A stretch of DNA of 64,000 nucleotides from Acidobacteriota bacterium (GTDB taxonomy: Bacteria > Acidobacteriota > Terriglobia > Terriglobales > SCQP01), in NCBI GenBank assembly GCA_027459505.1, contig DAIDIE010000043.1, positions 62,001-126,000 of the forward strand, in the 5' to 3' direction. Every line of letters starts with the position of its first letter. The first letter of the stretch is position 1. The position numbers and the translations under genes were made by a program. Shown piece after piece: positions 29,061 to 54,572 of the stretch. Under the pieces are notes generated by a model, which saw nothing but the letters and a program-made list of their open reading frames with translations, did not search any database and was not told the DNA's origin.

Positions 29061-31880
29061 TTAAAACGCCCAGCGGAGGCCGAGCTCGATGACGCGTCCT
29101 CCGGTGGAACCAGTAATTTTACCCGCATGCAGGTTGGGACTGGAGGCGCTTCCAATCATTGTGTCAGGGCTATTCAGGTTGGCGTGGTTAAAGGCGTTGA
29201 AGGCCTCCAGGAACGTTTCAAGGGTCGTGGTGCCCTCGATAGTCGCGTCGTGGGTAAGCGAAAGGTCGGTTCCCCATATGCCGGGAGCGCGCAGGTTTGG
29301 TGAGGTACGAGGACCGTCTCCCAGCGTAAAGTCGGCGGGCTGCGCAAAGGCGGCTGGATTAAACCAGCCGTTGGCCGAGGGATTCGTCACCTCCGGATCA
29401 ACGCCAGGAACGAGGTTTACGCGCAGGCCTTGGGCGACGCCGCCGGTGTTGTTGAACTCGGGATAGAAAATCAAGGGCTGACCTGAGGCCAGGGTGAGAA
29501 AACCGGAGATGCTCCAGCCACCCAGCAACAGATTGGCGTGAGGAAGACGACTGCCCAAATCGGTGTTTTGCAAAGCGGGAAGTTGGTAGTAAAAGCTGGC
29601 ATTGAGGTTACGGCTGCGATCCCAGGGCGCAATGGACTTTTCGGTGGAGAGATTGGTGACATCCTGCGGCCCGAACCAACCCCCGAAATTGTTGAGGATC
29701 TTGCCGAATTTGTAGGTGGACTCCAAAGTGAGCCCGTGGGTAGCGCGGATATCCAGGGTGATGTAGCCACCGTTATAGGTTTCCGTGCCGTAAGGATAGA
29801 CCCCGCCGAGGGCGATATTGAGGACCTGCGGATATGGCCGGAGCGACTGGCTGAAGCTCTGGTTATAGAGCTGGTCTCCGTAGATGAGGTCGGCGGGAGT
29901 GAGGCCATTGAGGTTGATGCCGTTCCAGACGTAGGAATGGGTCAGCAATTGACCGTTGTAGCCGGCGCGCAGGTCGAGCTTGGGGCCAAACTGCTCTTCC
30001 AGCCCGGCATTCCAGAATTGCTGCACGGGGAGCAGTCCGGAAGGCTCGATGTAGGGGACAACCTGATTGTCTCCTACCGAGGGAGAGAGAAATGGGGGAA
30101 CCGGACCATTGGGGAAGCCGTTCGCGAGGACCAAAGCCGGCTGCAGCTGATCATTAGGCGAGACGTACTGTGGATTGAGGGTAAAGCCCAGCGATCCGAA
30201 ATTCTCACCATACATGGGGAAGTCCTGATCGAGCATCTGGTAGCCAGCGGTGAAAATGGTGTCACGGTGGGGGCCAAAGTTGTAGGCCAAGCCAGTATGG
30301 GGTTCAAAGACTGAGCGGGCAGGCTGCAGTCCCGCAAGCCCGGGGCGGTGGCCGAAGATCATGGCGCCGGGCAATCCCGTGGCTGGGTCGATAGTCGACA
30401 GGTCAAAGCTGGACTGATGCCCCTGCGCTTCCTGGCGGGGCGTGACGTACTTCCAGTTGACTCCGATGGTCCACTGCATCCCGCGCAGCAGTGGGTAGCG
30501 GTCCTGCATTTGGACGAGCGCTTTGCTGGCACGGTAATGTCCGGCCTGCGGCACCAGATTGAGCTGCGCCTGACTGACATCGCCAAGCAGGAACTGGGCG
30601 AGGCTGCTCCCCGTATCAACGACTCCAGGCAGGGAAGTCTGCTGGCCGCTGAACTGAAAGCTGCCGGCGGGATAGTTGGCCTGGTAGGAGCCGAGCAACT
30701 GCTGCTGGAACTGAGCACTGAGGCTCAGCGCGTGACGGCCACGCTGTTGTGACAACGTGTCGCCCACTTGCCAGTAAACCCGGTTGGTGCTCTGGTTCGG
30801 GTTCTGTTGCCCAAGCTGTGGATACCCGCCGCCTAGATTGATGTTGGGGAACACGTCGGCAGTGACACCCTGCACGCCCAGTTGCTGTGGCCAATTTTGC
30901 TCGCCAGGGGCGGAATCTGATTGGCGATCCTGGCTGATGGATAGCCAAAACACCTGGGTGGTGCGATCACTGATAGACCAGCGATCGTTCAGGTCCAGCG
31001 AGCGGGACAGCGCGGCCTGGTTGAGGGCATCGGGGGAAGCGGGGTTGTTCAACACGGACGGCGCGTCATGTTGGCCAATCGAGCCTTTCAGCGTCAGGGT
31101 CGCCTGATGGCGGGTACTGAAATTATGGTCGATATGAAGAATTCCACCGTTGGGCGTGTTGCGTTCCACCGCGTTGCTGAAATAGTTGTTTTGCAGGAAC
31201 GGCCCGACATTGGTGTTCGGTAGCGGAAAATACCGCAGGAGGGCAAGTGCTACCGGATCCAGGCGGGCGGTGGGAATGACGTTTCCAGGAAACTGCTGAC
31301 GAAGGTACTGCGGATTGCCGAAAGAAACCGGTTGGTTGGGGTCGTAATTGGGATTGGGCTGGGTGGTGGCCGGGTCGTAAATCGGAATTTGCTTGCCAGC
31401 CGCGTCGACCAGGTCGGAGAAGTCTCCCTGCCGCTCCGCCAGCGTTGGGACGGTGGCGAGGTAAGGGCGAGCAATGCTTTCCCGCGTGCCCTCGAAGGAA
31501 AAAGAAAAATGCGTGGGGCTGTCCGGGCCGGGATGCAGGCCAATGGGGCCGACAAGGTCAATACCGAACTGGTTGCGATGCAGGGCCGAGCGCGAGCCAC
31601 CGTACTGATGCACTTCGTGGGGGATGGCGTCCAGGGCATCGTTGCGGAAGTATTCGTAGGCGGTACCGTGGAGCAGTTGGAAAAAGCCCAAACCGTGGCC
31701 CGCGTGCAGTTGCCGCCGATTCCAAGCCTTGAGTTCCTGGTGGTAGGCCTTAAGGGCGTTCCGAACCGTAGTGGCGTTCTGAAGCGCAAGATGCTGTTGC
31801 GGATCGGAAGAGGGCTTTTTGCACGCCCAGGCCATGGAAACGGCAAGGGCAAACGCCAGCAATGATCGCAAACAGCTCAT
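29061..31880 (-). CDS. TonB-receptor (Oar-like) outer-membrane beta-barrel, plug shortened
   Basis: I use ATG 31880 (MSCLRSLLAFALAVSMAWAC), giving 939 residues with a signal peptide. From residue 70 it follows the acidobacterial Oar-like receptors: HGTAYEYFRNDALDAIPHEV, SALHRNQFGIDLVGPIG, GDFSDLVDAAGKQIPIYDP, TPNGGILHIDHNFSTRHQAT, then many beta strands, GGWSISGFLTLASGQPLIFY and the C-terminal strand RVIELGLRWAF ending in Phe. The expected N-terminal carboxypeptidase-regulatory domain and first half of the plug (about 200 residues) are missing. It may be a gated porin-like variant or a rebuilt relic. It heads the 31.9-26.0 kb gene run. Confidence 0.8.
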   Translation of the reverse strand: MSCLRSLLAFALAVSMAWACKKPSSDPQQHLALQNATTVRNALKAYHQELKAWNRRQLHAGHGLGFFQLLHGTAYEYFRNDALDAIPHEVHQYGGSRSALHRNQFGIDLVGPIGLHPGPDSPTHFSFSFEGTRESIARPYLATVPTLAERQGDFSDLVDAAGKQIPIYDPATTQPNPNYDPNQPVSFGNPQYLRQQFPGNVIPTARLDPVALALLRYFPLPNTNVGPFLQNNYFSNAVERNTPNGGILHIDHNFSTRHQATLTLKGSIGQHDAPSVLNNPASPDALNQAALSRSLDLNDRWSISDRTTQVFWLSISQDRQSDSAPGEQNWPQQLGVQGVTADVFPNINLGGGYPQLGQQNPNQSTNRVYWQVGDTLSQQRGRHALSLSAQFQQQLLGSYQANYPAGSFQFSGQQTSLPGVVDTGSSLAQFLLGDVSQAQLNLVPQAGHYRASKALVQMQDRYPLLRGMQWTIGVNWKYVTPRQEAQGHQSSFDLSTIDPATGLPGAMIFGHRPGLAGLQPARSVFEPHTGLAYNFGPHRDTIFTAGYQMLDQDFPMYGENFGSLGFTLNPQYVSPNDQLQPALVLANGFPNGPVPPFLSPSVGDNQVVPYIEPSGLLPVQQFWNAGLEEQFGPKLDLRAGYNGQLLTHSYVWNGINLNGLTPADLIYGDQLYNQSFSQSLRPYPQVLNIALGGVYPYGTETYNGGYITLDIRATHGLTLESTYKFGKILNNFGGWFGPQDVTNLSTEKSIAPWDRSRNLNASFYYQLPALQNTDLGSRLPHANLLLGGWSISGFLTLASGQPLIFYPEFNNTGGVAQGLRVNLVPGVDPEVTNPSANGWFNPAAFAQPADFTLGDGPRTSPNLRAPGIWGTDLSLTHDATIEGTTTLETFLEAFNAFNHANLNSPDTMIGSASSPNLHAGKITGSTGGRVIELGLRWAF

Positions 31881-31960
31881 CAGTGGGCGGGACGGCACCT
31901 GATCAGTTTAGCCCGTGAGGGCAGGCCCATTCACTTAAAAACGGCTTTAAAACGGGAGCG

Positions 31961-33880: not shown

Positions 33881-35314
33881 TTAGTGAGGGTAGGCCGTGG
33901 AAGGGTTCGGCCGGAAAGGCCTTCCAGCGCGCAGTTCCGACAACACCTGCGCGGCACGGCGGGTGAACGCGGCAACTTTATCTGGAGTGATGTTGTTGTG
34001 ATTGGACTCAATCAGCGGGACGGCTTCTTTGGGCCCGGGAATCAAGTTGTAGGCGGTCCAGATGCCGGCTGGGGGTGCGATGGTGTCAATGAATCCCATG
34101 CCCACCAGGGTTGGGGCGGTGATATGGGGAGCGAAGTTGATGGGATCGAAATAGAGCGCTGTCCGGGCCACGCGAGGATCGCCGGTGCGCAGAAAGGGAT
34201 AGCCCTTCTGGCGGCCATGCAAATCAGCGTCGACGTCGCATCCAGCGGGCTCATCAACCAGAACGGCGGTGACGCGCCCGGGATTGAGTCCGGCCGTTAC
34301 GAGAGACTGCTGCCCTCCCATGCTGGTGCCCATAAACACCACCGTCTTTCCGTCCCAATGCGGGTTATCGCGAATGAAGTCCAGTGCGCGTGTGTCGCGC
34401 AGGTACATCTTTAGAAAGTAGTCCTGATTGCGATTGGTGTCGCCGATGTTCTGGTAATCGGCGGGAATGCCAGTGCCCAGTGTGGGTGACAGATCGTGGG
34501 AATCGACGTCGAAGGTCAGCCAGCCCTGGCTGGCCCAAACGGTGGCCCAACTGGGGTCCAGCTTGTAGACGCCTGCCCACTGATAGAGGATGAGTGCCGG
34601 ATAACGCTCACCAGAATCTGGACCGCGATCAGAAGCAGAAGGGGTTCGGCCTGGAGCTTGGGCATGGGCGGGGTAGGCCAGGTAGCCGTGGACATGAGAA
34701 CCAACGCTGTCCAGGGTAACGGTAAACAGCTTCACTCCCGGCGCTGCGGAGGGTTTAGGAACCAGTACAGGGTGAATGGGAACCCGCTTTAAGCGTGCCA
34801 ACTGCGCCGTCCAAAAGTCATCGAAATCGGCTGGCCGGGGGACCACGGGAGTCAGTTGTGTGGGGGTTACGGCAGCGCCGAGGCGAGCCACTATGGGCCC
34901 GGGCGTGGAGGGCGCTTTGCTGCGGGTCGCTGCGGGGAGGCGGCGTACGCGCACGCGTAGCATCGCGGGTGTGCCGATCGAAGTGCGGATTTCAACCACT
35001 CTCCCTGGACCTGGCTTTGAACTGATGGTGAAACGGCCTTCGGTGACCTCCGCCAAATTATTTCTCTTAACGGTATACGCGTAATGCCCCACGCAGCCAT
35101 GTGGCCCTGAGTGCGTTTTGATGGCAGCTGCGGCCACGGATCCATCAACCGCGGCGGTTGGGGAACAGGTAACTCTCCAGCCGACGATCTCGCCGGTTCG
35201 GTAGATTCCGTTGCGATGGAAGGGGGTGAAGTGGAGCGTTTGGGAAAAGCAGTAGAGAGGTGAAGCGGCGGCGATGAGTGTCAACAACGGTGCAAGCAGG
35301 CGGACAAGACGCAT
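33881..35314 (-). CDS. secreted alpha/beta hydrolase, acetyl-xylan-esterase (CE7)-like
   Basis: The 477-residue protein has a signal peptide (LLAPLLTLIAAASPLYCFSQ). An N-terminal beta domain (residues 30-130, FHRNGIYRTGEIVGWRVTC) precedes an AXE1/CE7-like hydrolase. That part shows RPADFDDFWTAQLARLKRVP, YPALILYQWAGVYK, the nucleophile elbow FMGTSMGGQQS, ILVDEPAG-type strands, an Asp in GMGFIDTIAPP and a His in IESNHNN. The N-terminal domain looks like those on plant-polysaccharide esterases. It likely removes acetyl groups from carbohydrates outside the cytoplasm; the exact substrate is inference. Confidence 0.82.
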   Translation of the reverse strand: MRLVRLLAPLLTLIAAASPLYCFSQTLHFTPFHRNGIYRTGEIVGWRVTCSPTAAVDGSVAAAAIKTHSGPHGCVGHYAYTVKRNNLAEVTEGRFTISSKPGPGRVVEIRTSIGTPAMLRVRVRRLPAATRSKAPSTPGPIVARLGAAVTPTQLTPVVPRPADFDDFWTAQLARLKRVPIHPVLVPKPSAAPGVKLFTVTLDSVGSHVHGYLAYPAHAQAPGRTPSASDRGPDSGERYPALILYQWAGVYKLDPSWATVWASQGWLTFDVDSHDLSPTLGTGIPADYQNIGDTNRNQDYFLKMYLRDTRALDFIRDNPHWDGKTVVFMGTSMGGQQSLVTAGLNPGRVTAVLVDEPAGCDVDADLHGRQKGYPFLRTGDPRVARTALYFDPINFAPHITAPTLVGMGFIDTIAPPAGIWTAYNLIPGPKEAVPLIESNHNNITPDKVAAFTRRAAQVLSELRAGRPFRPNPSTAYPH

Positions 35315-36031: not shown

Positions 36032-36772
36032 ATGGCTGCCACCCATCGTCCCGAACTCAGGCCTGCAAATCCTTTGCAGGAGAACCTCTGCAAGGCCATC
36101 TACGAAGCTCACGCTCCTCGAGTTTATTCGCTTTGCTCACGGATGCTTTGCGACGAGGGAGCCGCCCGCCGGGTCACCCAGGCGGTGTTCACTGACTGCT
36201 TCCGCCAACTGGCTCAGGGACGCAACTTCTCTCAAATAGGTGAAGCGCTGGATGATCTGGTCGTACGGCAGTTACGCCAGCGATTGGCAATTTTCCGCCC
36301 GTTTGAGGTAGTTGCCAAAACCCCCTTGCTGCGCGCCGAGGGCAGTTCCGGCATGGAAATCGCGCTGCGCACGTTGCCACCCACTGAGCGGCTGGTGTTT
36401 CTGCTGCACGACACGCACGGGTATAGCGTGGCCGTGGTGTCGCGCATGCTGGGCGTGGATGGGTCGATCTGCCGGCGCAGCTTGGCTTTCGCGCGGCGGG
36501 AGATGTACCGCCATCTGCATCCCACCAGCAGTTCCTCGCTGGTGGAGACGGCGGAGGCGACCAGCAACAATATCGCCGCCGAGCGTCGCCTGTTGATGGC
36601 GGTGGTTTCACAGGCATTAGAGGACGCGATGAGCTCGATGGGGCAGAGCGATCTGGCGCGGCAGGCGCGCGCCTGGCTGACGTCGGAAAGTTTGGAGCCG
36701 TTCAGTTTCCGCTGGATCTGCCAGCGGCTAGGAATGAGTCCGCAGCAGATCGGCGTAACGATGGCTGCATAA
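36032..36772 (+). CDS. ECF-like RNA polymerase sigma factor homologue
   Basis: ATG 36032 follows AGGAGG. The 246-residue protein shows a sigma region-2-like segment (LCKAIYEAHAPRVYSLCSRM then CDEGAARRVTQAVFTDCF) and a region-4 segment (LRTLPPTERLVFLLHDTHGY then SVAVVSRMLGVDGSICRRSL). The region-4 helix-turn-helix keeps the spacing but the recognition helix is unusual (GVDGSICRRS). A C-terminal extension of about 70 residues has no match. Region 2 lacks the usual aromatic promoter-melting residues, so it may be a regulator more than a working sigma. It lies upstream of the giant kinase in the same direction, with a hairpin between. Confidence 0.7.
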   Translation: MAATHRPELRPANPLQENLCKAIYEAHAPRVYSLCSRMLCDEGAARRVTQAVFTDCFRQLAQGRNFSQIGEALDDLVVRQLRQRLAIFRPFEVVAKTPLLRAEGSSGMEIALRTLPPTERLVFLLHDTHGYSVAVVSRMLGVDGSICRRSLAFARREMYRHLHPTSSSSLVETAEATSNNIAAERRLLMAVVSQALEDAMSSMGQSDLARQARAWLTSESLEPFSFRWICQRLGMSPQQIGVTMAA

Positions 36773-37123: not shown

Positions 37124-40100
37124 ATGAAAACCGTCAACGGTTCTGAAGCAGCCGTTCCCACCCCGGTTTCAACGTCCAAAGACAAAGAGTTATTGCGAGT
37201 GCTGAACGCCTTCCGGCAGGGCGACTTCTCCGTGCGCATGCGGCGCTCGGGAGGGCTCGACCCGCGTGTGGTACAGACTCTGAACGAGATCATCGAGCTC
37301 AATCAGAAGTTGACCCATGAGTTCGAGCGCATCAGCCGCAGCGTCGGCAAGGAAGGAAGAATTGCGCAGCGGGCCAGCCTGGGGCCGCACGGCGGCGCCT
37401 GGCGCGAGTGCGTCGATTCCGTGAACTCGCTGATTGGCGATCTGGTCCAGCCATCGACGGAAGTGGCGCGCGTGATTGGCGCGGTAGCCAAGGGCGACCT
37501 GTCGCAGAACATGGCGCTGGAAGTGGACGGGCGCTCGCTGAAGGGGGAGTTCCTGCGCACCGCACGGGTGGTGAACACCATGGTGGAGCAGTTGAACTCG
37601 TTTGCCAGCGAAGTCACGCGCGTGGCGCGCGAAGTGGGTACGGAAGGCAAGCTGGGCGGCCAGGCCATGGTGAAGGGCGTGGGCGGCGTCTGGAAAGACC
37701 TGACCGAGTCGGTGAACTCGATGGCCGGCAACCTGACCTCGCAGGTGCGTAACATCGCGGGCGTGACCACGGCGGTGGCGCGAGGCGACTTGTCCACCAA
37801 GATCACCGTGGACGCGCGCGGCGAGATTCTCGAGCTGAAAAACACCATCAACACGATGGTGGATCAGCTCAACGCGTTCGCCAGCGAAGTGACGCGCGTG
37901 GCGCGCGAGGTGGGTACGGAAGGCAAGCTGGGCGGCCAGGCGGAAGTGAAGGGCGTGGGCGGCGTTTGGAAAGACCTGACCGAATCGGTGAACTCGATGG
38001 CCGGCAACCTGACCGCGCAGGTGCGCAACATCGCCGGCGTGACCACGGCGGTGGCCAAGGGCGATCTTTCAACCAAGATCACGGTGAGCGCGCGCGGCGA
38101 AATTCTTGAGCTGAAGAACACGATCAACACGATGGTGGATCAGCTCAATGCCTTCGCCTCGGAAGTGACGCGCGTGGCCCGCGAAGTGGGTACGGAAGGC
38201 AAGCTGGGAGGCCAGGCGGATGTGCGCGGGGTGGGCGGTGTTTGGAAGGATTTGACCGACAGCGTGAATTCGATGGCTGGCAACCTGACCAACCAGGTGC
38301 GGAACATCGCGGCCGTAACCACGGCGGTAGCGAAGGGCGACCTCTCCACCAAGATCACGGTGGACGCGCGCGGTGAAATTCTGGAATTGAAGAACACCAT
38401 CAACACCATGGTGGATCAGCTCAACGCCTTTGCCTCGGAAGTGACGCGCGTGGCGCGCGAAGTGGGAACCGAAGGCGAATTGGGCGGCCAGGCGGAGGTC
38501 AAGGGTGTCGGTGGCGTCTGGAAGGACCTGACGGACAGCGTGAACTCGATGGCCGGCAACCTGACCGCGCAGGTGCGCAACATTGCCGGTGTGACGACAG
38601 CGGTGGCCAAGGGCGACCTGTCAACCAAGATCACGGTGAGCGCGCGCGGCGAAATTCTGGAGCTGAAAAATACCATCAACACCATGGTGGATCAGCTGAA
38701 TGCCTTCGCCAGTGAAGTGACGCGCGTGGCGCGCGAAGTGGGCACGGAAGGCAAGCTGGGCGGCCAGGCGGAAGTCAAGGGCGTGGCCGGCGTCTGGAAG
38801 GACCTGACCGAGTCGGTGAACTCGATGGCTGGCAACCTCACCAACCAGGTCCGTAACATCGCGGGCGTGACGACGGCGGTGGCAAAAGGCGATCTGTCGA
38901 CCAAGATCACCGTGGATGCGCGGGGCGAAATCCTGGAGTTGAAGAACACGATCAACACCATGGTGGACCAGCTCAGTTCGTTCGCCTCGGAAGTGACGCG
39001 CGTGGCGCGCGAAGTCGGCACGGAAGGCAAGCTAGGCGGCCAGGCCGATGTCAAGGGTGTGGCGGGCACCTGGAAGGACTTGACCGAGTCCGTGAACTCG
39101 ATGGCCGGCAACCTGACCAATCAGGTGCGCAACATCGCCGGGGTGACGACGGCGGTCGCCAAAGGTGATCTTTCCACCAAGATCACGGTGGACGCGCGCG
39201 GCGAGATTTTAGAGTTGAAGAATACGATCAACACCATGGTGGATCAGCTCAATGCCTTCGCCAGCGAAGTGACGCGCGTGGCGCGCGAAGTGGGCACGGA
39301 AGGGAAGTTGGGCGGCCAGGCGGACGTTAAAGGTGTAGGTGGCGTCTGGAAGGATCTGACTGAGTCGGTGAACTCGATGGCCGGCAACCTGACCAACCAG
39401 GTGCGCAACATCGCCCGCGTGACCACCGCGGTGGCCAAAGGCGATTTGTCGACCACGATTACCGTGGATGCGCGCGGCGAGATTCTGGAGCTGAAGAACA
39501 CCATCAACACCATGGTGGACCAGCTCAGCTCCTTCGCTTCGGAAGTGACGCGCGTGGCTCGCGAGGTAGGAACGGAAGGCAAACTCGGCGGCCAGGCGGA
39601 TGTAAAAGGTGTGGGTGGCGTCTGGAAGGATCTGACTGAGTCGGTAAACTCGATGGCCGGCAACCTGACTAATCAGGTACGTAACATCGCGGGCGTGACG
39701 ACCGCGGTGGCCAAGGGCGACCTTTCAACCAAGATCACCGTGGGCGCGCAGGGCGAGATTCTGGAGTTGAAGAACACCATCAACACCATGGTGGATCAGC
39801 TCAATGCGTTTGCCTCGGAAGTGACGCGCGTGGCGCGCGAGGTCGGCACGGAAGGCAAACTCGGCGGTCAGGCGGAAGTGAAGGGGCTGGCGGGTACCTG
39901 GAAGGATCTGACCGAGTCGGTGAACTCGATGGCTGGCAACCTGACCAACCAGGTGCGTAACATCGCCGGCGTGACTACCGCGGTGGCCAAGGGCGACCTG
40001 TCGCGCAAGATTACCGTCGACGCGCGCGGCGAGATTTTGGAGTTGAAGAACACCATCAACACCATGGTGGACCAGCTCAGCTCGTTTGCCTCGGAAGTGA

Positions 40101-43100
40101 CGCGCGTGGCCCGCGAAGTGGGTACGGAAGGCAAGCTGGGCGGCCAGGCGGATGTGAAGGGAGTGGCGGGCACCTGGAAGGATTTGACCGAGTCGGTGAA
40201 CTCGATGGCCGGCAACCTGACCAACCAGGTTCGTAACATCGCCGGGGTGACCACGGCGGTCGCCAAGGGCGACCTCTCCACCAAAATTACCGTGAGCGCG
40301 CAGGGCGAAATCCTGGAGTTGAAGAACACGATCAACACCATGGTGGATCAGCTCAACGCGTTCGCTTCAGAAGTAACGCGCGTGGCGCGCGAGGTGGGTA
40401 CGGAAGGCAAGTTGGGCGGCCAGGCGATGGTGACGGGAGTGGCGGGAACCTGGAAGGACCTGACCGACAACGTGAACTCGATGGCGGCCAACCTCACCAC
40501 GCAGGTGCGCGGCATCGCGAAGGTCGTGACGGCGGTGGCAAACGGCGATTTGAAGCGGAAACTGGTGCTGGAAACGAAAGGTGAAATCGCCGAGTTGGCC
40601 GACACCATCAACGGCATGATCGACACCTTGGCGCTCTTTGCCGACCAGGTGACCAGCGTGGCGCGCGAAGTGGGAATCGAAGGCAAGCTGGGCGGCCAGG
40701 CCCGCGTGCCCGGAGCAGCCGGCATCTGGCGCGATCTGACCAACAACGTGAATCAGTTGGCCGCGAACCTGACCACGCAGGTACGCGCGATCGCGGAAGT
40801 GGCGACGGCGGTAACCAAAGGTGATCTGACCCGTTCGATTGCGGTCGAGGCGCAGGGCGAGGTGGCGGCGCTGAAAGACAACATCAACGAGATGATCATC
40901 AACCTGAAGGAGACCACCCGCAAGAACACTGAACAGGACTGGCTGAAGACCAACGTGGCGCGCTTCACCGGCATGCTGCAGGGGCAGCGCGACTTGTTGA
41001 CAGTGTCGAAGCTGGTGCTATCGGAGTTGACGCCGTTGGTGGACGCGCAGCATGGCATCTTCTACATCAACGAGCCGGAGGAGGAGACCGGGGAGCCGCT
41101 GTTGAAGATCATGGCGAGCTACGCGCATCGCGAGCGCAAGCAGGCGGCCAATTACTTCCGCCTGGGCGAGGGGCTGGTGGGGCAGTGCGCGCTGGAAAAG
41201 GAGCGCATCCTGCTGACCGATGTTCCCAACGACTACATCAAGATCAGTTCCGGATTAGGCGAGGGCACTCCGCTCAACATTGTGGTTCTGCCGGTACTGT
41301 TTGAAGGGCAGGTCAAGGCGGTGGTGGAGCTGGCCTCGTTCCACCGCTTCAGTGATATTCACCTGGCCTTCCTGGATCAGTTGCTGGAGAGCATGGGTAT
41401 TGTGTTGAACACCATTGCCGCGACGATGCGGACGGAAGAACTGCTGAAGCAGTCGCAGGCGCTGGCGGAAGAGTTGCAGAGCCAGCAGGAAGAGTTGACC
41501 GAGACCAACAAGCGGCTGGAGCAGCAGGCGCGCACGCTGCAATCCTCCGAGGAACTGCTCAAGCGGCAGCAGGAGCAATTGCAGCAGACCAACGAAGAAC
41601 TGCAGGAAAAGGCGCAACTGTTGGCCGAGCAGAAGACCGAGGTGGAGCGCAAGAACCGCGAAGTCGAGCAGGCCAAGCGGGCGCTGGAAGAGAAAGCGGA
41701 GCAGTTGTCGCTCACCTCCAAGTACAAATCCGAGTTCCTGGCGAACATGTCGCACGAACTGCGGACGCCGCTGAACAACCTGCTCCTGCTGGCGAAGGTG
41801 TTGGCGGAGAATGCCGATGGCGGATTGACGCCCCGGCACGTCAAGTTCGCCGAGACGATTCACTCCTCCGGTACCGACCTGCTGGCGCTGATCAACGACA
41901 TTTTGGATTTGTCAAAGATCGAATCGGGAATGATGGGCGTGGACGTCACCGAGGTGGCGCTGAGCGATTTGCGCGACTACGGGTTGCAAACGTTCCGGCA
42001 TGTGGCGGAAGGCAAAGGACTGAGCCTGGTGGCCGAACTGGGGCCAGGCGTCCCGCGCAGCATGTTTACCGATTCCAAACGTCTGCAACAGGTATTGAAG
42101 AACCTGCTTTCGAACGCCTTGAAGTTCACCGAACATGGCTCAGTGACGCTGTCGATCGAGCGGGCGACCTCGGGATGGAATCCGGAACTGGAGGTGCTGA
42201 ACCGGGCCAAGAGCGTGATTGCCTTCTCGGTCACCGACACCGGCATTGGCATACCGGAGGACAAGCAGAAGATCATCTTCGAGGCCTTCCGTCAGGCGGA
42301 CGGCACCACGAGCCGCAGGTACGGAGGGACCGGCCTCGGCCTGTCCATCAGTCGCGAAATCGCCCGGCTGTTGGGAGGCGAGATCCGGCTGCAAAGCACG
42401 CCTGGAGTGGGCAGCACGTTTACGCTGTACCTGCCCCAGAACTACAATCTTGCGGGTCTGGCGCAGCGCAAGGGGAAGGCTGCGGCGGCCGGCAGCGGGG
42501 CGCAGGCGAGTACGGCGGTAAGCGGCAATGGGCACGGCGGTCTGGTCTCGCCGGAACTGCACTCCGGTCTGGCTCAGGTCGAGGTGGCGGCGCTGGAGCC
42601 GGCGCCGGTCGAGCCGAACGGTGATGCCAACGCGGGTAATGTGCAGGCGATTGACACCATCGAAGATGATCGCGCCAATCTGCAAGAGGGCGATCGGGCG
42701 CTGCTATTAATCGGCGAGGACCTCGCGGCGGCCCGCATCATCCGCGGTGTCGCGGCCGAACGGGAGTTCAAGTCCTTGATTGCCATTCGCGGCGACAAGG
42801 GTTTAAGCGTGGCGCGCGAATTCAATGTGAGCGCGATTGTGCTCGATCTGGCCTTGCCGGATCTTAGCGGTTGGACGGTGCTGGACCGGCTGCGCCACGA
42901 TCCCAAGACGCGCCATGTGCCGGTATTTGTCATCTGCGCCGAGGATGGCCGGGCCGAGGCACTCTATATGGGCGCCACGGACGTGGTACCGCGGCCGAAT
43001 AACCAGCAGTCATTTGATGTAATGTTTGGCAAGCTGGAAACGGCCTTGCAGCCACGGAAAAGCCGTATCCTGCTGGCACAGGACTCGCAGAGTGGCGACA

Positions 43101-43912
43101 CCATCGGCAACGCGGTTGAACTGCTAGGCAGTCAATCGGTTGAAGTGATGGCGGTCGGCACCGGGGCGGAGGCACTGGTGGCGCTGCGGAACGGGAGCTT
43201 TGATTGTCTGGTGATGGATGTGGGCCTGCCCGACTTGAGCGCCTTCCAACTGGTGCAGCACGTGCAGCATCAGAGCGGGCCCCTGTTTCCCGTCATCATC
43301 CATAGCGGCAGGGAACTGAGCCCGGAAGAACGGCTGGAGTTGGAGCGGCTGGACACTTCGGGATGGGTCGAGCTCTGCAGCTCACCCGAGTCACTGCTGG
43401 ACTTGACGGCGGTTCTGCTTCGGCAGCGCGAGGATGAGTTGCCGGAATACAAGCGCCGCATGCTGGAACAGGTGCGCCGCACCAGCCCGACCCTGGCCGG
43501 ACACAGCGTTTTGGTGGTCGACGACGATGTCCGCAATATTTTTGCTCTGACCAGTGTCTTGGAGGCGCAGCGGCTCGCTGTTTACCACGCGGAGAATGGC
43601 CGCAAGGGTATTGAACTGCTGAAGGCGCATCCGGACATCGACATTACTCTGATGGACATCATGATGCCGGAGATGGACGGCTACGAAACGACCCGGGCCA
43701 TCAGACAACTGCCGGAGTTTAGCGATCTGCCCATCATTGCCCTGACCGCGAAAGCGATGAAGGGCGACCGGGAAAAGTGCCTGGAAGCGGGTGCCTCGGA
43801 TTACATTACCAAGCCGGTGGATATGCAGGACCTGATCTCATTGCTGCGCGTGTGGCTGCGGCGCAATGTGCGGCCAATGCGCTCGTGGACCGCGAATGTA
43901 TCCACCGCGTAA
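37124..43912 (+). CDS. soluble poly-HAMP hybrid histidine kinase with GAF and three receivers (2262 aa)
   Basis: No signal peptide or membrane segment is visible, so the kinase is cytosolic. Residues about 60-1265 are thirteen 92-residue HAMP-type units: a divergent first unit ([10 protein letters not shown]), ten near-identical ones ([69 protein letters not shown]) and two drifted ones. Then come a GAF domain (about 1280-1440), a Gln/Glu-rich coiled coil, HisKA with His1544 ([11 protein letters not shown]), and HATPase with DTGIGIP and [10 protein letters not shown]. Three receivers follow: REC1 (Asp1908) and REC2 (Asp2032) lack parts of the active site, REC3 is canonical (Asp2178, Lys2230). 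The repeat and soluble layout recall fungal Nik1/Os-1 osmosensor kinases. It heads the cluster with the two next genes. Confidence 0.93.
37334..40921 (+). repeat. 276-bp coding tandem repeat (HAMP array)
   Basis: The unit repeats exactly every 276 bp, with anchors at 37610, 37886, 38162 and so on to 40646, plus a diverged unit at 37334. The ten units starting near 37610 to 40094 are highly similar also at DNA level, the flanking ones have diverged. The linker between units alternates LNAF and LSSF from about 38690 onward, which points to duplication of a two-unit (552-bp) block. The array is all in frame. Confidence 0.9.
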
Positions 43913-44179: not shown

Positions 44180-45520
44180 ATGGCCTCACAATCTCCAATG
44201 TCTTCCATGCCAATAGCGGGCAGCAGTGTACCCAAGATTCTGGTAGTGGATGACCGGCCGGATAACTTGCTGGCGCTGGAAGCGGCTCTGTTGGAGACTG
44301 GAGCGCAAGTGATCAAGGCCGAGTCGGGCACCGATGCGCTCCGCCATCTGCTGGAGGAGGACTTTTCGGTCATTCTCCTGGATGTCAAAATGCCGGACAT
44401 GGACGGCTTTGAAACCGCCGGTCTGATCCGTCAACGGGAGCGCTCGCGCAATACGCCCATCATCTTTTTGACCGCTTTTCGCAATGAAGAGGCGCTGTTC
44501 CGCGGTTACCATCTGGGGGCGGTGGACTACCTTTTCAAACCAGTGGTGCCGGAGGTTTTGCGCTCCAAGGTGAGCGTTTTTATCGAGTTCACGCGTCAAA
44601 AGGAGCTGTTGCGACGCAATGCCGAGGTCTTGGAAGACAAGAATCGCGAACTGCGGCAGACCATGCTGGAGCGGGAACGCGCGGAAGAGGAGCTGCGCCG
44701 GGCCAATCTGAATCTTTCGGCCTTGAACTTGCAGCTTGCCGAAAAGGCGGAGCGGATTGAGCAGCAGGCCAAAGAGCTGGTGCGGTCCAACGAGGAGCTG
44801 GAGCGCTTTGCCTCGATTGCCTCACACGACCTGCAGGAACCGCTGCGAACCGTGGCCAGCTACACGCAGTTTCTGGCAGAGCGCTACCAGTCCAGGCTGG
44901 ACCCGGAGGCGGATGAGTTCATTCGCTTCGTCGTCGACGGTGTGAACCGCATGCGCGCGCTGATCGAAGACCTGTTGTCCTACTCCAAGGTGGGCGCGCG
45001 GCGCAGACCGTGGGAGCGTTTTGGGTCGCGCCAGGCGCTGGAGCTTGCGCTCTCCAATCTTTCCGGAACGATCGAGGAAAGGGATGCCGAGCTGCAGATC
45101 GAGGAGCTGCCCGAGATCCTGGGGGATCCTGGCCAGATCAGTCAGGTCTTCCAGAATCTTCTCGGCAACGCCCTGAAGTTCTGCAAAAAAGCCAAGCCGC
45201 GCATTCGCGTGGCGGCTGAACCGCAGGGGCATACATACCGCTTCTCCGTGAAAGATAACGGAATCGGGATTGAAAGCAAGTACGCCGACCGGATCTTCCA
45301 GGTATTTCAGCGGCTTCATACCCGCGCTGAATATCCTGGAACGGGTATTGGCCTTGCGATTTGTAAGAAAATTGTGGAACATCACGGTGGACAGATCTGG
45401 TTTGAATCAGCGCCGGGCAAGGGCACGACGTTCTTTTTCACGCTGCCGGCGGCGGAAGTAGCGATACAAAATGGCGACACTGGCCCCCGAAACGCAACCG
45501 TTGCAGATTCTGTTGGTTGA
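44180..45520 (+). CDS. receiver-histidine kinase (REC-coiled coil-HisKA-HATPase)
   Basis: I choose ATG 44180 (AAGGGAAG upstream); ATG 44060 would add 40 residues without domain character. From 44180 there are 446 residues. A canonical receiver (KILVVDDRPDN, Asp68 in LLDVKMPDMDG, KPVV) is followed by a coiled coil, a phytochrome-like HisKA box with His216 (ASHDLQEPLRTV), and an HATPase (NLLGNALKF, KDNGIGIE, YPGTGIGLAICKKIV). There is no sensor or membrane segment, so its input must come from its receiver, most likely phosphoryl groups from the giant kinase upstream. Its end overlaps the next gene by 50 bp. Confidence 0.9.
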   Translation: MASQSPMSSMPIAGSSVPKILVVDDRPDNLLALEAALLETGAQVIKAESGTDALRHLLEEDFSVILLDVKMPDMDGFETAGLIRQRERSRNTPIIFLTAFRNEEALFRGYHLGAVDYLFKPVVPEVLRSKVSVFIEFTRQKELLRRNAEVLEDKNRELRQTMLERERAEEELRRANLNLSALNLQLAEKAERIEQQAKELVRSNEELERFASIASHDLQEPLRTVASYTQFLAERYQSRLDPEADEFIRFVVDGVNRMRALIEDLLSYSKVGARRRPWERFGSRQALELALSNLSGTIEERDAELQIEELPEILGDPGQISQVFQNLLGNALKFCKKAKPRIRVAAEPQGHTYRFSVKDNGIGIESKYADRIFQVFQRLHTRAEYPGTGIGLAICKKIVEHHGGQIWFESAPGKGTTFFFTLPAAEVAIQNGDTGPRNATVADSVG

Positions 45521-45944
45521 AGACGATCCCGGAGACGCGCGCCTGACGGCTGAGGCTCTCAAAGATTTGCCCGAGGCAAACTTGCTGGAGCATGTCTTTG
45601 ATGGTGTGGACGCAATTGACTACCTGCGGCAGCAAGGTAAATTCCGCAATGCGCAGCGCCCCGACCTTGTGATCCTGGACCTCAATCTGCCGCGCAAAGA
45701 TGGCAGGGAAGTGCTGCAGGAAGTGAAAGCCGACGAGCGGCTGCGCACGATTCCCGTGGTGGTCTTCAGTACTTCCACCGCTAAGGAAGACATTGTGCGG
45801 GCCTACGCTCTGCACGCCAACTGCTACGTCTGCAAGCCGGTGCATTTGCGCGAGTTCATGCGCGCGGTGCAATCGCTGGCGAGCTTCTGGGCGGCCAACG
45901 TGCGATTTCCCAAGCAACTCTGCAAGGATACGGCGGGCGCCTAG
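45471..45944 (+). CDS. single-domain response regulator (Rcp1-like)
   Basis: The 157-residue protein is one CheY-like receiver: ILLVEDDPGDARLTAEAL, the loop FDGVDAIDYLRQQG, Asp70 in VILDLNLPRKDG, the Ser/Thr in VVFSTSTAKED and Lys in CYVCKPVHLREF. The long loop before the phosphorylated Asp and the LPRKDG motif are typical of Rcp1-type regulators paired with phytochrome-like kinases, as seen in the kinase just upstream. There is no output domain, so it acts as a shuttle or phosphate sink. It overlaps the kinase gene by 50 bp, suggesting coupled translation. Confidence 0.92.
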   Translation: MATLAPETQPLQILLVEDDPGDARLTAEALKDLPEANLLEHVFDGVDAIDYLRQQGKFRNAQRPDLVILDLNLPRKDGREVLQEVKADERLRTIPVVVFSTSTAKEDIVRAYALHANCYVCKPVHLREFMRAVQSLASFWAANVRFPKQLCKDTAGA

Positions 45945-51431: not shown

Positions 51432-54400
51432 CTATTGCACGGTCACCAGAATAGTTGAGGTGTGGTTGAGCGGCCCGTCTTGCGCATCCACGGTGATCTG
51501 TGCGGTGGAACCGGTGGCCGTCGTTGTGCCACCGCTCGGGTTATTGCTGACCGGAGCGGGAGCACCGCCCCCGCCACAAGCGGAAAAGAGCAGAGTTCCT
51601 CCCAGCAAAACTGCCGGCAGCACGGCGGCCGTCATCCAGCGTTTCGGAATGGATGGGAGAAAGCGTAAGCTGCTGAGCCACAAAAGCAATGCAAGGAGAG
51701 CCGCCAAAATGACTGGGAACAGTCGCAAAAAGCTGGCTCCAGAGTTGGGCCGTCCCGCGGCGCCGACTGCCGCAGTGGTAGCAGTAATGGTCAGGGTAGC
51801 CGAACCGTTCAGCGCCACGTTGGAACTGGAGAGTGAGCAAGTGACATTGGCAACGGAGCTCAAACAGCTCAAGTTGGCGTTGCCGCCGAGCCCGTTGACG
51901 GGCGCCAGGGTCAGCCCCACCGTGGCACTCTTGCCGGCGGCGATGGTGAGGGCGTTCTGCGCAGCGGTGATGGAGAAGTCCTGGCCATTGGGAGGCGGCA
52001 AGGCGGGAATGGTCCAGGCGCCACGGCCGTGGGTGGCAACGACCACCGCGGGGTTGGCGCCGTTGGTAACAGACACCTGCATGGCCGGGGTGTCCGGCAA
52101 ACCGGTGCCGAGCACCTGCCAATTCTCGTTCGCCTGACCGCCGTCGGTGGCCACAAAGACGCCGATATCAGTGCCGACGTAAATGTTGTTGGCATTCTGC
52201 GGATCGACGGCAATGGAGTTGACCGGGACATCTGGAAAGTTGCCGGTGATATCGGTCCAGGAACCACCGAAATTGTCGATGCGATAGACATGCCCCAGCG
52301 CTGAGCCACTGGAAAACGCCCCTATCCCGAGGAACGCGGTGCCAGCGTTAATTGGGCAGACAGCGATCGCACTGAGCGGAGCGCCAACCACCGGGCCAGG
52401 TGTGATATCGGACCATTGAGGGGACGAGGAGTTGGCGTTGGAGGTCTCCGCCAACGCACCGCCTATCGTTGCCGCGTAAATCACGTTGGAATCGGTGGGG
52501 GCGACGGACACGCTTTGGATGTAATCGTAACTGGTGCTGGTGAGGACCGGGCTAATGGCCTGCCAGCCGCTGTTGGGAGCGGAAGGAGAGGCCGGCCCGC
52601 GCCATACCTGACTGGCGCCCAAAACAACCTTGCTGGAGTCGGTTGGCACGAGCTGATAGGGGATATAGAAGGCGGCTTGCTGATTGAGGGTGGCGCCATC
52701 AAAAACGGTTTGGAAACTGCTGTTTTGAGCGCTGACGGAGCCGGCGGTATCCGAACGCACTAGCGCCCACTGGTTCTGGGTATCTGGATAAACATATTCA
52801 TCTTCGCCGAAGTACTTTCCGGCAGTAGTGGGATCGATGGCCGTGAATCCTCCGTCACCGCCGTAGACGGTTTGCCAATTCAGCCCCTGGACGGTTTTGG
52901 CAGTGCCATTGTCCTGTGAGCCGCCCAGGTAGGTTCCAGGCGAGAACGGGTCGGCGGTCACACCAAGAAACTGTATGGTTCCAATGTTGGTATTGAGGTC
53001 GTTCCAGGTTCCACCGCCATCGGCGGTGGACCAAACACCACCGTCATTGCCGACGAACCAGTGGCTGGCGTCCAGCGCCACAACCGCGTGTTCGTCGGGG
53101 TGCACCACACCGTCGGTGTAGCTGCGGGTGTTATTGGACCAGGCGGTTGTCAGCCCACTGATATTTGTGGAGCTAAAGGTGTCAATGCCGCCCAGCAGCA
53201 GCCCGCCACCGGGTATGGCTTGCAGATAAAGATCGTAGGTGCCTTGCGCATTGGGTCCAAATATTTCGTCCGTCTGCCCGGGAAAACCCGGAGGCGCAAT
53301 TGGCGTCCATGTCTTGCCCCCATCGCTGGTTTGCGCCATGCCGGTATCGCAATTCTGTTGTGTGGTGGTGGTGCAAGCGCTGGAGGTAGACAGACTGCCG
53401 GAACTATTAACGACGGCCACGTACACTGTGCCGTTTTGCGTGGCGAAACTGGCGCGGTAGAAATTGTTCAGCGTCGCCGTCGTGGTCGCGCTGGCAAAGG
53501 GGAGGCTGACCGGGGTAAAGGTTGCACCCTGGTCGACGGACTTATAGACTCCGTTGCCGCGCAAAGCTGCATAGATAGTCTGGGTTTGAGGCTCGTAGAG
53601 CAGATCGGTGCAGGAGAAGCCGCCTGGAGCAGTCGGGCTAGAAAAATCCGTAGAGGGCACCAGACTCCAGGTATTGCCGCTATCGGTGGAGCGGTACACG
53701 CCGCGGGTGTAGCCGAGGCTCTGGGCATCGGCCACGCCGGGGCTGGCGCCACAGGCCAGAACGGTCCCAGGCGCCGAGGGCACGGGCAGAATTCTGGCGA
53801 AGGACATGCCGAAAAAAGGATGCGTACCGGAATCGGCCGATGAGCTGAGAGTCCACGTGAGCCCGCCGTCAGTGGAGCGGAAAATGCCCACGCCGTAGTA
53901 GCTGAGGCTGGAGCTATTGGCTTCGCCGCTTCCCACGTAAAGGGTCGCGGGACTGGTGGAAGCATCCAGGGCGAGCGCACCGACCGCCAAGGACTGGGTC
54001 TGGTCGGAAATCGGTGTAAACGTAGGCGCGCTGCTCAGGGCATTGGTGCTTTTCCAGACGCCGCCGTTCGCGGTGCCGACGTAGAGGATGTTTCCAGTGG
54101 GATCGTCGCTGATGTCATCGGCGAGGGAGGTTACGCGTCCCGACACGTTTTGATAGAACGGGTCGTGCTGCGGTGCGGGGCCCAGCTCGGTCCAACTGCC
54201 ACCGCTGGTTGCAAGAGCGTTGTAGGCGTGGCGCTGCCGCCCCTGCCAGCGCTCCCACTCCAAATGCGGCGTGATGACCGAGAGCTGGGCCTTTTGGCGC
54301 AGCGCTATCAGGCGATGCGCGGCCGGGCTGCGGTGGTCCAGAGTGACGCGGGTATGGGCAAACCAGGCGGCCCGTGCCGCCGCGAGTTTGCGTTGCCGGG

Positions 54401-54473
54401 GTGTTTGTGCACCGGTTGACAGAGTCAACAACAGGGAAGCCGAGAAGGCGACGAGCGCGCAGCGGGACCACAT
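51432..54473 (-). CDS. secreted sortilin-like/BNR beta-propeller protein with Ig-like, membrane-spanning C-terminus
   Basis: From ATG 54473 the protein has 1013 residues and a signal peptide (CALVAFSASLLLTLSTGAQ). Residues about 90-830 are beta-propeller blades with many Asp-box motifs (STDGGLTWT, STDSGNTWS, SDGGKTWT, TADGGGTWN) as in sortilin/Vps10 and exo-glycosidase-like propellers. An Ig-like domain (FSITAAQNALTIAAGKSATV) follows. Two hydrophobic helices then lead to a Gly/Pro tail with a last beta strand (TVDAQDGPLNHTSTILVTVQ). The helices are inserted within the Ig-like domain. The role is probably extracellular carbohydrate or protein binding. Confidence 0.8.
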   Translation of the reverse strand: MWSRCALVAFSASLLLTLSTGAQTPRQRKLAAARAAWFAHTRVTLDHRSPAAHRLIALRQKAQLSVITPHLEWERWQGRQRHAYNALATSGGSWTELGPAPQHDPFYQNVSGRVTSLADDISDDPTGNILYVGTANGGVWKSTNALSSAPTFTPISDQTQSLAVGALALDASTSPATLYVGSGEANSSSLSYYGVGIFRSTDGGLTWTLSSSADSGTHPFFGMSFARILPVPSAPGTVLACGASPGVADAQSLGYTRGVYRSTDSGNTWSLVPSTDFSSPTAPGGFSCTDLLYEPQTQTIYAALRGNGVYKSVDQGATFTPVSLPFASATTTATLNNFYRASFATQNGTVYVAVVNSSGSLSTSSACTTTTQQNCDTGMAQTSDGGKTWTPIAPPGFPGQTDEIFGPNAQGTYDLYLQAIPGGGLLLGGIDTFSSTNISGLTTAWSNNTRSYTDGVVHPDEHAVVALDASHWFVGNDGGVWSTADGGGTWNDLNTNIGTIQFLGVTADPFSPGTYLGGSQDNGTAKTVQGLNWQTVYGGDGGFTAIDPTTAGKYFGEDEYVYPDTQNQWALVRSDTAGSVSAQNSSFQTVFDGATLNQQAAFYIPYQLVPTDSSKVVLGASQVWRGPASPSAPNSGWQAISPVLTSTSYDYIQSVSVAPTDSNVIYAATIGGALAETSNANSSSPQWSDITPGPVVGAPLSAIAVCPINAGTAFLGIGAFSSGSALGHVYRIDNFGGSWTDITGNFPDVPVNSIAVDPQNANNIYVGTDIGVFVATDGGQANENWQVLGTGLPDTPAMQVSVTNGANPAVVVATHGRGAWTIPALPPPNGQDFSITAAQNALTIAAGKSATVGLTLAPVNGLGGNANLSCLSSVANVTCSLSSSNVALNGSATLTITATTAAVGAAGRPNSGASFLRLFPVILAALLALLLWLSSLRFLPSIPKRWMTAAVLPAVLLGGTLLFSACGGGGAPAPVSNNPSGGTTTATGSTAQITVDAQDGPLNHTSTILVTVQ

Positions 54474-54572
54474 GCGGGAGGAGCTCCAAAGAAACAACGG
54501 TGTTATGAAAGTAGCATCAACTCCGGGCCGCGGCAACGAATGCCGGGTTGCACTACACATTTGAAGACGTTC

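Follow-up and report, generated by a model that had tools for sequence, protein, structure and literature searches.

A protein of 2262 residues, encoded in the analysed stretch of DNA (64,000 nucleotides, referred to as the window), is best explained as a bacterial hybrid histidine kinase of the poly-HAMP type, located in the cytoplasm and akin to AskA/AskB, in which a relay rod would signal to the receiver of a partner gene; the probability of this reading is put at roughly 0.6. The gene is real and complete, and within its widespread family it is typical. The kinase is ordinary in kind and in array length, yet few members of the family have been studied (the papers found concern AskABC and OsaAB). 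The paired receiver gene, which the initial annotation left unmentioned, is the most useful addition to it, and the association with a single type of receiver supplies a concrete partner for the kinase.

Domain organization and conserved residues

Pfam searches of the entire protein returned 13 HAMP and 13 HAMP_2 stretches, a GAF_2 domain, HisKA, HATPase_c, and three receivers (Table 1). No membrane helix was detected by hydropathy over the whole protein, in which the highest Kyte-Doolittle 19-residue mean (1.64) falls within the GAF domain, and a membrane anchor was ruled out on this basis.

Table 1. Features of the poly-HAMP kinase and the adjoining receiver genes (window positions)
Feature	Position	Strand	Basis
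Poly-HAMP hybrid histidine kinase, 2262 aa	37124..43912	+	Frame open from ATG to stop; Pfam
HAMP array, aa 21-1269: 13 units of ~92 aa (HAMP + HAMP_2) and a final single HAMP	37184..40930	+	Pfam; own-unit and half-unit profiles
Ten near-identical internal units, aa 205-1124	37736..40495	+	Tandem Repeats Finder; own-unit profile
GAF domain, aa 1289-1428	40988..41407	+	Pfam GAF_2, E 2.3e-18
Putative coiled-coil signalling helix, aa ~1435-1525	41426..41698	+	E/Q/L-rich by eye; boundaries hand-set
HisKA, phospho-acceptor His1544	41726..41929	+	Pfam; residue comparison
HATPase_c, N1664 and D1705 intact	42071..42439	+	Pfam; residue comparison
Receiver 1, Asp1908 present, Arg replaces Lys	42680..43048	+	Residue comparison; boundaries hand-set
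Receiver 2, Asp2032 present, Ser replaces conserved Lys	43055..43408	+	Residue comparison; boundaries hand-set
Receiver 3, active site complete (D2133, D2134, D2178, T2208, K2230)	43508..43846	+	Pfam; residue comparison
Partner: receiver, coil, HisKA, HATPase, 486 aa	44060..45520	+	Pfam scan of window; comparison with relatives' loci
Single-domain receiver, 157 aa as called, overlapping the partner's end	45471..45944	+	Pfam scan of window

Relatives were sought with the region after the array as the query against bacterial and archaeal genomes, and were confirmed by tblastn. At least 582 core relatives were obtained, a figure that counts similar cores rather than poly-HAMP proteins, and the 80 best of these, chosen by similarity to the window's core, were compared in detail. 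Residues and domains were counted in 79 of the 80 (L088 was left out). All 79 span the GAF domain, HisKA, HATPase, and receivers 1 and 2, and 78 span receiver 3. The kinase positions His1544, N1664, and D1705 are occupied by H, N, and D in every one of the 79 relatives, and each of the five active-site residues of receiver 3 is conserved in 78 or 79. In receiver 1, the Asp is invariant (79/79), and the Lys, which is Arg in the window protein, is found in 77. The conserved Lys of receiver 2 is absent throughout, being Ser in the window protein and Ser or Thr in all 79 relatives, which makes this domain a possible pseudo-receiver. It may still accept phosphate, since the window protein and 68 of the 79 relatives retain the Asp of this receiver.

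Structure and history of the HAMP array

A profile built from the array's own units placed 13 of them between residues 21 and 1216, followed by half a unit at 1217-1269. Unit 1 is weak, scoring 28.6 bits compared with 124.7-180.4 bits for the next twelve. Each unit pairs a canonical HAMP with a divergent HAMP_2 behind it, so that 13 units of two modules, together with the final single HAMP, give approximately 27 HAMP modules. Half-unit profiles revealed a strict alternation of the canonical and divergent kinds over 26 modules, rather than 27, because the first canonical module is too degenerate. The array spans 13.6 units in the one assembly on which its length rests (contig C44, 227,280 bases), where near-identical repeats can be mis-sized.

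These results bear on several claims of the initial annotation. Its thirteen units of 92 residues were recovered in number and in length, and the count with HAMP profiles that it had proposed gave no fewer; each unit, however, proved to hold two HAMP modules rather than one. The lack of a membrane segment and the order of GAF, coiled coil, HisKA, HATPase, and three receivers after the array were borne out by hydropathy and by Pfam, respectively, with the coiled coil read from the sequence. The novelty that it implied for the length of the array did not hold, as arrays this long are common among the 55 relatives described below.

Tandem Repeats Finder reported a single array in the 64-kb window, with a period of 276 bases, 10.7 copies, and a score of 3815. 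The ten internal units are 86-99% identical in protein and 80-90% identical in DNA. At positions where internal units share a residue, the same codon is used in 66% of cases, compared with 50% expected if codons were independent, and no decay of codon sharing with distance along the array was found. A recent expansion of the repeat is unsupported by this level of codon sharing, despite the high protein identity. The internal units are 93% alike mutually, whereas their similarity to any single relative averages no more than 87%; among the proteins compared, only 123 of 390 units have their nearest unit within their own protein. Homogenization of the units is thus supported in part.

Array length was counted in the 55 of the 80 best relatives with unbroken frames, the other 25 being excluded as their frames run off a contig end. 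The number of unit-profile matches ranged from 0 to 17: 8 units were found in 13 arrays, 13 units in 12, 11 in 8, 14 in 5, 16 in 4, 15 in 3, 6 and 10 in 2 each, and 0, 1, 5, 7, 9, and 17 in one relative each. By span, the array is longer than that of the window in 8 of the 55. The array is dispensable in some lineages, because two Nostoc relatives (L039 and L041) retain the GAF-kinase-receiver core with a single HAMP, according to the half-unit profiles.

In all 55 unbroken relatives and the window, half-unit profiles identified the last module before the GAF domain as a canonical HAMP. The two kinds of HAMP alternate throughout the same set, with the exception of L014, in which a 35-residue gap probably hides a module. 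A tentative reading is that arrays differ in length by complete HAMP pairs and have a canonical HAMP as their last module, so that the sign of the signal would be the same at any length. Neighbouring HAMPs of the soluble receptor Aer2 are described as giving opposite signals (PMC3570549), and a conserved end module could therefore preserve signal sign. Selection on parity remains unproven, since unequal exchange between repeats would also preserve it. The alternation, together with the canonical last module, offers a handle on whether the number and parity of HAMPs set the sign of the kinase.

The paired receiver gene

The partner gene begins 147 bases beyond the end of the kinase. Neither a promoter-like nor a terminator-like site was found in this gap, so that co-transcription of the two genes is neither supported nor excluded. 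With the partner's receiver as the query, a similar receiver was found directly downstream on the same strand (within a span reaching from 300 nt ahead of the kinase end to 500 nt past it) in 49 of 78 testable relatives, a rate that is possibly inflated by the selection of relatives for similarity to the window's core; L041 and L088, too short downstream, make up the 80. The downstream-adjacent receivers (51 matches) have a median identity of 52% to the partner's receiver, compared with 34% for the other receivers, whether within the kinases or at other places in the loci. The 29 loci with no directly downstream receiver comprise 9 with the receiver directly upstream, 9 with a receiver 1-6 kb downstream (at least 50% identity), and 11 with neither.

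On the upstream side, a receiver-bearing frame ends beside the kinase start in 9 of 53 testable relatives, the other 27 of the 80 having an open frame or less than 3000 nt of upstream sequence. The partner in this order carries its receiver at the front of a gene of approximately 1.8 kb. These upstream cases show the pair in the other order. When both sides could be assessed (50 loci), the receiver was present downstream only in 30, upstream only in 10, on both sides in none, and on neither in 10, a receiver being counted if it reached 45% identity and lay no farther than 2500 nt away, a cut-off picked after the data had been seen.

The output halves attached to this receiver differ. All ten of the downstream partners scanned (of 49) are receiver-bearing histidine kinases, and seven of these also have PAS or GAF domains. 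The nine upstream partners, all of which were scanned, comprise seven receiver-GGDEF-EAL proteins (Massilia, Rugamonas, Duganella, Noviherbaspirillum, and Nitrosomonas) and two receiver-HisKA-HATPase proteins, both from Cohnella. The seven loci with a GGDEF-EAL-fused partner receiver directly upstream of the kinase (L032, L036, L047, L048, L061, L075, and L080) are all from Betaproteobacteria, and their outputs suggest a link to cyclic-di-GMP in those relatives. That the receiver is shared while the output halves are exchanged points to it as the target of the kinase.

A broader reading, to which we assign somewhat less than even odds, is that many phyla share a conserved module made of a soluble poly-HAMP kinase and one special receiver encoded on either side of it, in which the receiver is the target and its output half is swapped between lineages. 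In such a module, the output half would be a histidine kinase here and perhaps in AskC, GGDEF-EAL in several Betaproteobacteria, and a coiled coil in OsaB. If this were true, askB-askC and osaA-osaB would be two cases of one general cytoplasmic integrator. Literature searches aimed at bacterial poly-HAMP kinases and, to a small extent, at the pairing yielded the AskABC and OsaAB papers, and no report of a cross-phylum pair as judged by titles and opening lines of abstracts.

Distribution of the family

The named relatives among the best 80 of at least 582, placed in a tree of 83 rows, belong to 12 phyla. An Acidobacteriota contig is the nearest row to the window, a placement that is weakly supported (80/51), and the two included rows from the same order sit in the other large clade; near genomes are represented in the tree by 2 of 10 loci, the other 8 being absent as only the + strand was taken. 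Two Hyalangium relatives (L020 and L031) are also present. The core was matched at E 1e-100 in 11 of 60 near genomes, and the array at E 1e-30 in 28 of 297 genomes of the phylum, the window's own genome being included in both counts; inheritance within the lineage is therefore patchy. In the own genome (4.06 Mb), the protein has 89 matching places, of which 88 are confined to its coiled-coil, kinase, or receiver parts, and no other place matched the array. The genome has a rich two-component repertoire.

Comparison with known systems

Bacterial poly-HAMP hybrid kinases have been described in Myxococcus xanthus (AskA, MXAN_0712; AskB, MXAN_6735) and Sorangium (Amb07) (PMC7643160), and in Streptomyces coelicolor, where OsaA (1829 aa) is reported to have more than 10 HAMPs, to lack a membrane helix, and to be paired with a response-regulator gene (PMC9739842). 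The bacterial setting, which the initial annotation had implied to be new, was thus already on record in these published descriptions. Like AskA, AskB, and Amb07 as described, the window kinase is a soluble poly-HAMP hybrid kinase with several receivers. A second kinase with a receiver lies immediately downstream of it, just as askC (MXAN_6734) directly follows askB, and binding between the AskC receiver and receiver 3 of AskA is reported from two-hybrid assays (PMC7643160). AskA and AskB have a known developmental role; the likeness of the window kinase to them is judged by design and from the published descriptions. Many N-terminal HAMPs with no membrane segment, the HisKA and HATPase residues, several receivers, and the downstream receiver-kinase were all found in the window. 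OsaA, as described, similarly combines a hybrid kinase lacking a membrane helix, more than 10 HAMPs, and a paired response-regulator gene. The window's partner differs from OsaB, whose receiver is described as joined to a coiled-coil effector outside the classical families, by the addition of HisKA and HATPase. In design, the window kinase is closest to AskA/AskB and OsaA.

Fungal group III kinases (CaNik1p, Bos1, and TcsC), from their published descriptions, share the HAMP pairs, the final single HAMP, HisKA, HATPase, and a receiver. Their arrays are given as five to six repeats of approximately 90 residues, each a HAMP pair, and that of CaNik1p as four 92-residue pairs and one last single HAMP (PMC3848655); the "five to nine units" of the initial annotation mixed repeats with domains. 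The domain set described for CaNik1p (HAMPs, HisKA, HATPase_c, and REC only) is not that of the window kinase, which has thirteen pairs rather than four, a GAF domain, and three receivers, and which, because of the GAF domain and the two extra receivers, is not a fungal Nik1 proper. To our knowledge, the HOG pathway is absent from bacteria.

The N-terminal part of the window kinase has a close homologue in PDB entries 9trk (matching residues 19-296 of the kinase, E 2.5e-122) and 9trj (matching residues 19-204, E 1.3e-72), which contain a histidine kinase fused to Gcn4p. Aer2 of Pseudomonas and Vibrio is likewise a soluble protein with stacked HAMPs (PMC3570549), and the NCBIfam Aer2 model matches 13 stretches of the window kinase. 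The score, however, is 340.4 bits against a model cut-off of 1200, and the output of Aer2 is a chemoreceptor domain rather than a kinase.

Proposed mechanism and alternative explanations

Two chains probably lie parallel, with the approximately 27 HAMP four-helix bundles stacked into a long dimeric rod. The rod would pass a two-state signal to the GAF domain, and from there through the coiled coil to the HisKA/HATPase core. The array probably restrains the kinase, a regulatory role that is proposed because removal of every HAMP from CaNik1p is reported to activate Hog1p in the absence of a stimulus (PMC3848655). His1544 would be phosphorylated, and the phosphate would presumably flow to receiver 3, to the partner receiver, or to both. 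The kinase half of the partner may relay phosphate to the small receiver, and receiver 2 may have a binding role instead of acting as a phosphate acceptor. A route through HPt proteins is also conceivable, since two HPt domain matches occur in the own genome, one in a 577-residue frame and one in a 270-residue frame. The signal might be osmotic, a metabolite, or a secreted compound.

The rod might instead itself sense osmolarity or macromolecular crowding, as has been proposed for fungal Nik1 kinases and is suggested by Streptomyces OsaA/OsaB, an explanation that we consider rather unlikely. By analogy with OsaAB and fungal Nik1, the osmotic or cytoplasmic-state sensing put forward in the initial annotation is possible, and the absence of a membrane segment is consistent with it. 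The 92-residue pairs and final single HAMP resemble those described for CaNik1p (PMC3848655), and OsaB, the partner of the similarly long OsaA, is reported to be needed for osmoadaptation (PMC9739842). Array length, however, varies widely among the relatives, which argues against the rod as the sensor. The GAF domain, a conventional small-molecule-binding fold, is kept in all 79 relatives compared. It is not among the domains named for CaNik1p (PMC3848655), and, in the M. xanthus report, ambruticin binding was measured for AskC, not for AskA or AskB (PMC7643160).

AskB is also reported to act at the mrpC promoter (PMC7643160), which raises the alternative of a DNA-binding kinase complex at promoters. 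Partial Pfam matches to SpoIIID and HTH_6 lie over the HAMP units and resemble those of the AskB paper, as described there. No stretch passes singly, however, and the matches are located on HAMP helices, so that they are probably look-alikes summed over the repeats; as DNA-binding domains of the array they were rejected. Apart from these matches, Pfam identified no DNA-binding domain in the kinase, the partner, or the small receiver, and this alternative is regarded as improbable.

Neighbouring genes

Just upstream of the kinase, a gene at 36032-36772 (+) encodes a protein with a sigma-70 region 4 match and no region 2 match. Only two matches to this protein were found in the relatives' loci, 4.6 and 6.9 kb beyond the kinase. 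Elsewhere in the window, on the - strand, lie genes for a 945-residue outer-membrane beta-barrel protein (29061-31898; Pfam OMP_b-brl_4), a 477-residue protein with an acetyl xylan esterase AXE1 match (33881-35314), and a 1042-residue protein with a Sortilin-Vps10 match (51432-54560).
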